A stretch of DNA of 64,000 nucleotides from an uncultured Pelagibacteraceae bacterium (lineage in GTDB: Bacteria; Pseudomonadota; Alphaproteobacteria; Pelagibacterales; Pelagibacteraceae), in contig CACIZC010000001.1 of assembly GCA_902591045.1 (NCBI GenBank), positions 62,001 through 126,000 of the forward strand, read 5' to 3'. Below are positions 30,011-63,929 of this stretch, in pieces. The notes below the pieces were generated by a model. That model saw only the letters and a program-made list of their open reading frames with translations, had not been told where the DNA came from and did no database searches. How positions within the stretch are numbered: the stretch's first letter is position 1; every line of letters starts with the position of its first letter. The position numbers and the translations under genes are program-made.

Positions 30011-30940
30011 ATGAAAATTTTAGGAATGGGAAATGCAATAGTAGATGTTATCTGCAAGGTAGATGATAATTTTTTAGCTGAAAATAATCTTACTAAAAGC
30101 ACAATGAAATTAGTTAATGAAATTGAATTTAAAAAATTGTTATCTAGTCTAAAAATTGAAGAAACTGTTGCAGGTGGGTCTGTTGCAAATTCCATTGTAG
30201 GTCTAGCACAGCTAGGTAACAATGTCGGTTTTATAGGCAAGGTTAACAAGGATGATCTAGGCAATAAATACGAAGAGGGCCTTGAAAAAGAAAAAGTAAA
30301 ATATTTTTATTCTAAAAAAAAAGAAGAGTTGTCGACTGGAACTTGTTTAATTTTAATAACGCCTGACTCAGAAAGAACAATGTGTACTTTTTTGGGAATC
30401 GCAGGAAAAATTAATGAAAATGACATTGATGTTGGTGCTATTCAAAGTAGTGAAATAATTTTCTTAGAAGGATATCTCTGGGATGAAGGAAGTCCAAAAA
30501 AAGCTTTTGAGAAAGCTATAAAGAACTCAAATAAAGTTGCTATGTCACTATCTGATCAGTTTTGTGTTAATAGACATAAGCCACACTTTTTAAATTTAGT
30601 TAAAAATAAATTAGATATTACATTCGCAAACGAACAAGAAATTTTATCTTTAATTGATAGTAAAAGTTTTGATGAAGTAATTTCTTTTGGAAAAAATATT
30701 GGAAAGTTAATGGTTATAACTCGAGGTGAGAAAGGTAGTATTGCAATAAATAAAAATGATGTGGTTGAATGTGGTGTTCAAAAGAATTTAAAAATTGTTG
30801 ATTTAACAGGAGCTGGTGATCTTTTTGCTGCTGGATTTTTGCATGGTCATATAAATAATTTATCACTTAAAAAAAGCTTAGAAAAAGGGACTGAGATGTC
30901 GTCTAAAATAATTCAAAAAATTGGAGCTAGACTCTCTTAA
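30011..30940 (+). CDS. PfkB-family carbohydrate/adenosine kinase
   Basis: 309 aa ribokinase-fold enzyme. The N-terminal substrate motif (VAGGSVANSIVGLAQLGNNVGFIGKV) and the C-terminal PfkB signature DLTGAGDLFAAGFLHG with the catalytic Asp are both present. The overall pattern is closest to adenosine-kinase-like members common in alphaproteobacteria, but the substrate cannot be fixed from sequence. The last 14 bases overlap the stop end of the opposing ArfA-like gene. Confidence 0.88.
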   Translation: MKILGMGNAIVDVICKVDDNFLAENNLTKSTMKLVNEIEFKKLLSSLKIEETVAGGSVANSIVGLAQLGNNVGFIGKVNKDDLGNKYEEGLEKEKVKYFYSKKKEELSTGTCLILITPDSERTMCTFLGIAGKINENDIDVGAIQSSEIIFLEGYLWDEGSPKKAFEKAIKNSNKVAMSLSDQFCVNRHKPHFLNLVKNKLDITFANEQEILSLIDSKSFDEVISFGKNIGKLMVITRGEKGSIAINKNDVVECGVQKNLKIVDLTGAGDLFAAGFLHGHINNLSLKKSLEKGTEMSSKIIQKIGARLS

Positions 30941-31043
30941 GTTTTTTTCTGTTATAGCTTCCTTTTCCCTTTTTTGGTTTTACAACACGTTTACGGTATT
31001 TTTTTGTAAATAAATCTTTTGCAAAAATATTTCTTTTTTTCAA
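30927..31043 (-). CDS. ArfA-like alternative ribosome-rescue factor, 38 aa
   Basis: A short gene starting with TTG at 31043 and ending with TAG at 30927-30929. The product begins MKKRNIFAKDLFTKKYRKR and continues VVKPKKGKGSYNRKKLKRV. The LF-x3-R-x-R-V-V and KKGKGSY-x-RK pattern is the core of ArfA (PF03889-type), which recruits release factor 2 to ribosomes stalled without a stop codon. The TTG overlaps the TGA stop of the upstream regulator gene as TTGA, implying coupled translation. It fills the apparent gap between the PfkB gene and the regulator. The protein is very basic, as expected for a ribosome ligand; it could instead be another small ribosomal-interacting peptide. Confidence 0.74.
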   Translation of the reverse strand: MKKRNIFAKDLFTKKYRKRVVKPKKGKGSYNRKKLKRV

Positions 31044-31672
31044 AGTTTATAGCCTCTCTTAGTGTGTTTGATAAAGTTTTCATCACCAAAAAAATTTTTA
31101 ATTTTTTGCCTTAGTCTATAAATATGTGTCTCGATAGTATGAGTATCGCTTTCTGAAGAATACTCCCAAATATATTTGAGTATATAATCTTTATCTAGAG
31201 GCTTTTTGGATGTATGAAGTTTTTCTATAAAATAAATTTCTTTTTCAGTTATTTTTACAGCTTTATTATCTTTTTTTAAAACTCGCTCGTTCTTATCTAA
31301 AATATAATCCTTGATTTTTATAAGTGAGTTTTTATCAAATTGATGTTTTTGAGAAACATTTATTATAACCTCATTTAATTCAATCAAATTTATTGGCAGC
31401 CCTATAATTTTGCTAAATTCATTTTTAAATCCATTTTTTTCGTTATGTTTTTTAAGTAGAATTTTAGGAATATTAATCTTCTCAAATAACTCTGTTTTTT
31501 TTCCATTAGACTCGACTACTAAAAGGTTATACTCGCCATTTATCAATTTTTTTTCATTTAAAGAGTTGAGAAAAACCATATCAAACCCTAAAAACTCTTT
31601 TACTTCCTCGAGTGACTTGGTAAAATTTTTACTGCAAAGGAAAGCTACATTAATATTATTAGAATTATGCAT
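31040..31672 (-). CDS. Winged-helix response-regulator-like protein with degenerate receiver
   Basis: 210 aa. The C-terminal half is a typical OmpR/PhoB DNA-binding domain (VKITEKEIYFIEKL, then SDTHTIETHIYRLRQKI and HTKRGYKL at the end). The N-terminal 115 residues have receiver-like alternation (NVAFLCSKNF; YNLLVVESNGKK). The position expected to hold the phosphorylated Asp reads Glu54-Ser55 and the acidic pocket is not evident. It is probably phosphorylation-independent. The start abuts the L,D-transpeptidase start head to head in ATGCAT, and the stop is coupled to the ArfA-like gene. No histidine kinase is nearby. Confidence 0.8.
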   Translation of the reverse strand: MHNSNNINVAFLCSKNFTKSLEEVKEFLGFDMVFLNSLNEKKLINGEYNLLVVESNGKKTELFEKINIPKILLKKHNEKNGFKNEFSKIIGLPINLIELNEVIINVSQKHQFDKNSLIKIKDYILDKNERVLKKDNKAVKITEKEIYFIEKLHTSKKPLDKDYILKYIWEYSSESDTHTIETHIYRLRQKIKNFFGDENFIKHTKRGYKL

Positions 31673-61853: not shown

Positions 61854-63929
61854 TTACAAAACCTCTCTTTTTCCAACGTGATTTGCTTTACTTACAATAC
61901 CGTTTTCCTCCATTTGTTCAATGATTCTAGCAGCTCTATTATAGCCAATTTGAAGTTTTCTCTGCAAAAAGCTTGTCGATGCTTTTTTTTCAGATTTAAC
62001 AATTTTCAATGCTGCATCATATAGATCATCTTGTTCGTCAGATGAAGAAATGTATCCTCCATCACTTTCTCTATTTGTAGTTATTTCCTCAATATAGTCT
62101 GGATTTCCTTGTGATCTCAAATAACTTGAAATTTTTTCTATTTCACTCTCTCCAACATAGGGCCCATGTATTCTAAATATTTTATTTGCCGAAGACATAA
62201 ACAGCATGTCCCCCTTACCTAATAATTGTTCAGCACCTTGTTCACCAAGAATAGTTTTACTATCTATTTTTGAACTTACCTGAAAAGAAATTCTTGTAGG
62301 AAAATTTGCTTTTATTGTTCCTGTGATTACATCGACACTTGGTCTTTGAGTGGCCATTATAATATGAATTCCAGCTGCTCGTGCCATTGCGGATAATTTT
62401 TGAACATATCCTTCAATTTCCTTTCCTGAAACCAACATAAGATCGGACATCTCATCTACTACAACAACTATATAAGGCATTTTTAATTTATGTTTTTGGT
62501 TATAACCATCAATGTCTCGTACACCTTCCGAACTCATTAATTTATATCTGTTTTGCATCTCTCGTACAGTCCAAGATAAAGCTGAAGTTGCTTTTTTAGC
62601 ATCAGTAATTACCGGTGTAAGCAAATGAGGTATGCCCTCATAGGATGATAATTCTAACATTTTAGGATCAATTAAAATAAGTTTACAGGTAGCAGGGCTA
62701 TGTTTGTACAGTAAGGACATAATTATTGTATTAATACAAACAGACTTACCAGAGCCAGTTGTGCCTGCAATTAATAAATGAGGCATTGATGCAAGATCAA
62801 CAACTACTGATAATCCTGATATATTTTTTCCTAAAGCTATAGGCAGTTTAATTTCTCTTCTTCCAAAATTACTAGATGAAAATATTTCCGATAAAATAAC
62901 ATTTTCTCTTTTTGAATTTGGTATTTCTATTCCAAGTGTATTTTTACCCGGTATTATAGATACTCTTGCAGAAATTGAACTTGTGTTTCTTGCAATATCG
63001 TCTGCAAGGTTTATTATTTTTGAAACTTTTATTCCAGGCGCAGGCTCAAATTCATATAAATTTACTACAGGTCCATTATTAATTTTTTTAACCTGTCCTT
63101 CTATTCCAAAATCTAATAAAATTTTTTCTATAAAGTCCCCGCTATGTATTTTTGAATTTTGGTTCTTCAAAATTTGACTTTGTTTTTTTTCTAATAAATT
63201 TATTGAAGGTAATTTATATTCACTTGAAACTTTTTCGCTTTGACTTTTAAAAGAAAATGACTGCTGTTTTAAAACATTTTCCTTTGTATAATTTTGCATT
63301 TGTTCAGGAATATCTTCTTGTTCATTTTTATTTTTTTTAATTTTATTTTTAAAAATTAATAAGTTGAAAAAACTTGTAAAAAAATATTTTATATTAATAC
63401 CGATACTCAAAATAAAAAAAGATAAAGTTAGTATTAATAATGTAACTTTGCTTATGTTGTTTTCAATTAAAGGGCTAAATCTTTGTATTAAATTATAGAA
63501 TCTTTCTCCAACAAATCCAGAATTTCCATTATCAATAAGCCAAAAGGAATTATTAAATGTTGTGTATAAAAACAAACATCCAAAAATAATATACAATATG
63601 GAGTACAAAATTTTATTTAAAATTTTTTCTATCTTTTTTTGAAGGATTAAATTTAGACTCCACGACAATAAAGTTATAGCAAAAAGAAAAGATATCAGTC
63701 CAAAACTTTGAAGAAAAAAGTCTGCTGTTGCATCAACATATATTTCTAAAAAGTGTTTAGAAGTAATCTCATCTGTTTTAAATATCAGGGTAGAATTTTC
63801 AGGAGAATATCTAATAAGTGAATAAATAAAAAACAGGAAAAGAGTGATTAAAATCAAACCAAAAAATTCAATAAATCTTTTTCTTAAAAAATCGATTATA
63901 TTATTGTATATATTGCTACCTAATTTCAT
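61854..63929 (-). CDS. ftsK: DNA translocase FtsK
   Basis: 691 aa, short for the family because the linker is brief. Four TM segments occupy about residues 1-190, then a Lys/Gln linker and the motor domain with Walker A LIAGTTGSGKSVCINTII, Walker B IVVVVDEMSDLMLV and ATQRPSVDVITGTIKANFP. The C-terminal gamma winged helix (about 620-690) reads DNA polarity. It coordinates division with chromosome dimer resolution. It is the upstream partner of lolA. Confidence 0.97.
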   Translation of the reverse strand: MKLGSNIYNNIIDFLRKRFIEFFGLILITLFLFFIYSLIRYSPENSTLIFKTDEITSKHFLEIYVDATADFFLQSFGLISFLFAITLLSWSLNLILQKKIEKILNKILYSILYIIFGCLFLYTTFNNSFWLIDNGNSGFVGERFYNLIQRFSPLIENNISKVTLLILTLSFFILSIGINIKYFFTSFFNLLIFKNKIKKNKNEQEDIPEQMQNYTKENVLKQQSFSFKSQSEKVSSEYKLPSINLLEKKQSQILKNQNSKIHSGDFIEKILLDFGIEGQVKKINNGPVVNLYEFEPAPGIKVSKIINLADDIARNTSSISARVSIIPGKNTLGIEIPNSKRENVILSEIFSSSNFGRREIKLPIALGKNISGLSVVVDLASMPHLLIAGTTGSGKSVCINTIIMSLLYKHSPATCKLILIDPKMLELSSYEGIPHLLTPVITDAKKATSALSWTVREMQNRYKLMSSEGVRDIDGYNQKHKLKMPYIVVVVDEMSDLMLVSGKEIEGYVQKLSAMARAAGIHIIMATQRPSVDVITGTIKANFPTRISFQVSSKIDSKTILGEQGAEQLLGKGDMLFMSSANKIFRIHGPYVGESEIEKISSYLRSQGNPDYIEEITTNRESDGGYISSSDEQDDLYDAALKIVKSEKKASTSFLQRKLQIGYNRAARIIEQMEENGIVSKANHVGKREVL

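Follow-up and report, generated by a model that had tools for sequence, protein, structure and literature searches.

The window, i.e., the whole 64,000-nucleotide stretch of DNA that was analysed (positions 62,001 to 126,000 of contig CACIZC010000001.1 from an uncultured Pelagibacteraceae bacterium, SAR11), contains on its minus strand a small gene, 30927..31043, which the sequence evidence identifies as a real gene and a member of the family of the ribosome-rescue factor ArfA. It encodes 38 amino acids (aa), begins with TTG (31041-31043) and ends with TAG (30927-30929), and translation of the minus frame gives the peptide (L/M)KKRNIFAKDLFTKKYRKRVVKPKKGKGSYNRKKLKRV. An earlier note on this DNA had proposed an ArfA-like gene of this kind between a PfkB kinase gene and a winged-helix gene, with a TTG start overlapping the stop of the gene upstream, and the frame was found exactly as it had been described: the start codon and the TGA of the winged-helix gene (31042-31040) share the four bases TTGA (31040..31043, minus strand). 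At its 3' end, the small gene overlaps the convergent pfkB open reading frame by 14 nucleotides (nt).

The profile search and the comparison with close relatives that the earlier note had named as checks both bore it out. The Pfam profile of ArfA (PF03889) matched the peptide with 29.9 bits, above the curated cut-off of 25.5, and this was the sole ArfA match over the cut-off in the window's own genome; a search of NCBIfam with the peptide gave no match. The frame is kept across the Pelagibacteraceae under purifying selection, with a ratio of non-synonymous to synonymous change (dN/dS) of about 0.09 among 81 aligned copies, and the excess of synonymous change was seen in this frame only, the other frames showing none. 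The nearest named genomes belong to the Pelagibacteraceae, with identities of up to 87% across all 38 residues. Moreover, a profile built from 50 SAR11 homologues scored E. coli ArfA at 33.7 bits, compared with a maximum of 14.4 bits for about 19,400 composition-preserving shuffles of that protein and of 14.2 bits for about 20,000 shuffles of the window peptide. The RF-1 domain, the GGQ-containing hallmark of ArfB, was not matched by the peptide in the Pfam search, which excludes a relative of ArfB.

All 50 homologues match Pfam ArfA, and their profile retrieved from the PDB the ArfA chains of the ribosome complexes 5mgp, 7oj0, 5u4i, 5mdv, 5mdw and 5h5u with E-values from 8e-8 to 2.5e-7. The alignment of this profile with E. 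coli ArfA is gapless, SAR11 residues 3-35 lying opposite residues 12-44 of the E. coli protein. Invariant in the 50 sequences are N5, L11, K24-K25-G26-K27-G28-S29, R32 and K33; the basic core KKGKGSYxRK aligns to E. coli residues 33-42. According to this conserved core and the alignment, the basic tail KKGKGSYNRKKLKRV (30930..30974, minus strand) is the predicted counterpart of aa 31-48 of E. coli ArfA, the part that sits in the empty mRNA channel of the ribosome (PMC5378476).

Matches to Pfam ArfA were found in 237 of 297 Pelagibacteraceae genomes, in 159 of them above the cut-off, and in 103 of the 127 genomes with a completeness of at least 90%. Outside the Pelagibacterales they were sporadic, with 6 of about 286 other genomes of the class matched by Pfam ArfA and 11 by the SAR11 profile. 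A survey published in 2024, which worked with nucleotide profiles, reported arfA in none of 2,376 Alphaproteobacteria (PMC11633108). Genes as short and AT-rich as this one easily escape such profiles, and searching whole genomes with protein profiles alters the published picture: contrary to the reported zero, a compact ArfA, as recognised by its sequence, is conserved in most Pelagibacteraceae.

Few cells in the ocean are as abundant as those of SAR11 bacteria, whose genomes are strongly reduced. Since such reduced genomes keep a second rescue system in most Pelagibacteraceae, it is suggested that transfer-messenger RNA (tmRNA) alone is usually insufficient. A two-piece tmRNA was already known from Pelagibacter ubique (PMC2704228), and we found tmRNA above the threshold in 50 of 60 Pelagibacteraceae genomes, the window's own included. 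SmpB was present in 48 of the 60 and in 25 of the 26 of high quality; in the window's own genome (82% complete) the search did not find it. A protein of ArfB length with the RF-1 domain was found in neither the Pelagibacteraceae nor the sister family, in which only full-length RF1 and RF2 occurred besides fragments in draft genomes; as a control, the same search was run on 14 other Alphaproteobacteria, 6 of which have a short third protein. In the published survey, ArfB was present in 2,022 of 2,376 Alphaproteobacteria (PMC11633108). With tmRNA and SmpB present and ArfB absent, SAR11 seems to pair trans-translation with ArfA/RF2. Five complete or near-complete sister genomes (G003, G017, G026, G035 and G074; L281 and L284-L287) were negative for arfA, and the ArfB search came up empty in each one that it covered; tmRNA may be the sole known rescue route of these genomes, leaving aside a divergent ArfA-like peptide encoded by G003.

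The winged-helix gene upstream of arfA (31040..31672, minus strand) encodes a regulator of the OmpR type with 210 aa (Pfam Trans_reg_C, 42.4 bits) and a degenerate, receiver-like N-terminal half. Its structural model has a predicted local distance difference test (pLDDT) score of 86.8, and the top Foldseek matches are response regulators, e.g., KdpE and CosR; the protein appears as a degenerate response regulator in which the DNA-binding half is kept and the receiver half is highly variable. On the other side, the convergent gene (30011..30940, plus strand) encodes a PfkB-family kinase of 309 aa (Pfam PfkB, 150.9 bits). Among the 50 loci, which were found by the ArfA search, the winged-helix gene adjoins arfA in 46. 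The four-base NTGA overlap was present in 30 of the 45 loci that were scored, and most of the others start a few bases from the upstream stop; the start codons in these 45 were ATG (24), TTG (15) and GTG (6), and many are preceded, about 9-12 nt upstream, by a purine-rich stretch ending in GG. In genus g9 (L010, L006 and L004), the winged-helix gene and arfA are separated by a photolyase-like gene, and it is the stop of the latter gene that arfA overlaps. In the five arfA-negative sister genomes, the winged-helix gene and pfkB are convergent with nothing between them. Because the winged-helix gene is kept without arfA, and the arfA of g9 sits behind another gene, the pairing with the regulator looks positional; what appears to be conserved is the coupling to an upstream gene, whatever that gene is. 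Thus, of the coupling to a DNA-binding regulator that the earlier note had pointed out, the conserved position stands and a functional link is unlikely.

In E. coli, ArfA is made from a non-stop mRNA that arises through an RNase III hairpin, and it is repressed in a tmRNA-dependent manner. E. coli arfA served as a control and showed its strong 3' hairpin (-29.1 kcal/mol); none of the 50 SAR11 arfA genes has a hairpin of the RNase III type, the median local energy being -5.5 kcal/mol and the lowest -8.1, and no terminator-like site was seen at the gene in the window. Control through a non-stop mRNA as in E. coli was therefore rejected. With a stop codon directly behind the basic tail, the gene can do without a non-stop mRNA, and tmRNA-dependent repression is thus not apparent. 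We infer that the SAR11 gene is expressed constitutively and that the protein would be produced from an ordinary mRNA by termination-reinitiation rather than being induced when tmRNA fails. The lack of the E. coli mode of production is a difference in regulation and does not decide membership in the ArfA family. The earlier note had seen in the gene a backup to tmRNA; its identity as a rescue gene is supported, but with neither hairpin nor terminator it may not be a backup of the E. coli type that responds to tmRNA failure.

Relatives of the gene are also common in marine phages. Scanning viral contigs for PKKGKGS(F/Y) returned at least 304 stretches that encode ArfA relatives, and in the several contigs whose flanking genes were examined, these were phage genes. 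In the T4-like contigs L187, L242 and L248, arfA lies between clamp-loader genes; the clamp loader of L248 and its counterpart in Pelagibacter phage Mosig share 80% identity. The podophage contig L190, which is related to HTVC010P, has arfA behind the endolysin region; at the corresponding place in HTVC010P itself, arfA is missing. A tblastn search of annotated phages with the 38-aa peptide returned nothing, and the longer flanking phage proteins reached the relevant records. As pelagiphages and other marine phages carry ArfA-like genes, ribosome rescue is suggested to be a function that phages bring along. Some of the ArfA-like genes of the viral set (L183-L262) are fused to longer basic proteins (L249, L250 and L261).

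More divergent small basic proteins were encountered as well. Those of genus g5 (L079-L083) and of part of g3 carry the ArfA-like N-terminal motif NPxAKxLRTPKF, lack GKGS and are encoded at other loci. The g5 protein scored 25.9 bits against DUF7230 (PF23876), for which the cut-off is 27, and a weak match to this family was also given by the phage ArfA of L187; going by these matches, DUF7230 may be related to ArfA. Similar small basic proteins without the KKGKGS core occur in the sister family (f2; L084-L086, L091 and L094), in three cases (L084, L085 and L091) downstream of a short-chain dehydrogenase gene. The weak PF03889 matches in the f2 genomes G303, G300 and G345 lie inside open frames of 366-371 codons and are probably due to chance.

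Taken together, these observations are best explained by a compact ArfA that very probably works with RF2 as it does in E. coli and is apparently made by termination-reinitiation from a stop-containing mRNA. When a ribosome has run off a broken mRNA and its mRNA channel is vacant, the basic C-terminal tail of ArfA would enter this channel, and the middle segment with Tyr16 would recruit RF2; in the absence of a stop codon, RF2 would then open and hydrolyse the stuck peptidyl-tRNA. Reinitiation would take place at the NTGA shared with the preceding gene, whichever gene that is. Because ArfB is absent, SAR11 would have in this ArfA its only known alternative to trans-translation. Ribosome binding, recruitment of RF2 and translational coupling are each predicted for the SAR11 protein. 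In E. coli, the patch L19/L24/F25 contacts RF2 (PMC5378476), and in the alignment Tyr16, the SAR11 counterpart of Phe25, retains the aromatic character. The RF2 residues that ArfA contacts, W319, V198 and F217 (PMC5378476), have retained equivalents in the SAR11 RF2 sequences (V or I in the case of V198). A number of observations weigh against this reading. The three RF2 residues may be general features of RF2, so that only a precondition is in place. Two of the three RF2-contact residues are replaced, L19 by Asp10 and L24 by Lys15; in E. coli ArfA, activity is lost when A18 is changed to threonine (PMC5378476), and at this position SAR11 mostly has lysine (Lys9). The first nine residues of E. 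coli ArfA are without a counterpart in the SAR11 form. Moreover, E. coli ArfA is active when cut at Asn47 and no shorter (PMC5378476), and many SAR11 copies stop at the equivalent of residue 44, three before Asn47; the copy in the window ends exactly at the equivalent of residue 47. Some complete SAR11 genomes have no arfA gene, and the rescue activity of the SAR11 protein is deduced from homology.

Three other explanations were weighed. The frame is very short, starts with TTG and overlaps both of its neighbours, as might a chance lysine-rich frame in AT-rich intergenic DNA, but the Pfam score over the cut-off, the family-wide conservation, the low dN/dS with its other-frame controls and the far lower scores of the shuffles rule this out for practical purposes. 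The peptide and the winged-helix protein could form one regulatory unit, in which ArfA senses translation stress and the regulator reports it; the two genes stand side by side, mostly overlapping, in 46 of the 50 loci. Such a unit is highly improbable, and we rejected it, given that the five sister genomes have the winged-helix gene and pfkB without arfA, that the photolyase-like gene of g9 intervenes and takes over the overlap, and that the winged-helix protein changes quickly, with 27-58% identity to the copy in the window, next to an ArfA that is strongly conserved at 54-84%.

An unlikely though more serious competitor is a descendant of ArfA with another task on the ribosome, e.g., binding to the empty channel of idle ribosomes without RF2 in hibernation or silencing. 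It would account for an invariant part that coincides with the basic, channel-binding half, for the replacement of A18 and of two of the three hydrophobic RF2-contact residues, and for the fact that no tmRNA-linked control is visible. Against it, conservation extends to the aromatic contact, to N5 and L11 and to the middle segment, the contacted residues are kept in the SAR11 RF2, and the phage homologues hold a similar N-P-x-A...K-Y motif. A wider picture of the rescue factor is offered tentatively, as a possibility that we rate somewhat below probable: in the Pelagibacteraceae, a minimal, always-on ArfA/RF2 system would replace the ArfB backup, its gene being independent of tmRNA, standing last behind unrelated upstream genes and overlapping with them, and exchanged with marine phages, which would carry the same factor so that ribosomes stay free while they infect.

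Among the known systems, ArfB (YaeJ/ICT1) shares with the SAR11 protein the presumed role of a backup to tmRNA and is the usual alternative factor of Alphaproteobacteria, but it is not related to the SAR11 protein, has a catalytic GGQ domain of its own and was not found in SAR11. BrfA of B. subtilis is likewise a small rescue factor that recruits RF2 (PMC6881298), whereas the SAR11 gene matches ArfA and shows no terminator; this comparison was made with the ArfA profile only. Closer at hand is gp30 of pelagiphage HTVC027P (QGZ17811.1), which was named ArfA (PMC12753301): its core NPVAKEVRTPKYKSQIIKPKKGRGSFKR is close to the host peptide, but the phage gene has an extra N-terminal segment and its score of 20.2 bits is under the Pfam cut-off. 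E. coli ArfA (YhdL) has in common with the SAR11 form the core KKGKGS(Y/F)xRK, the aromatic residue at E. coli position 25 and the predicted partner RF2. It differs in its length of 72 aa compared with about 35-42 aa, and in a hydrophobic C-terminal tail and an RNase III hairpin, both of which are missing from the SAR11 form, where the gene's own stop stands right behind the basic tail. A natural ArfA of 35-38 aa is near the smallest active form and would test which residues are really required for the recruitment of RF2.
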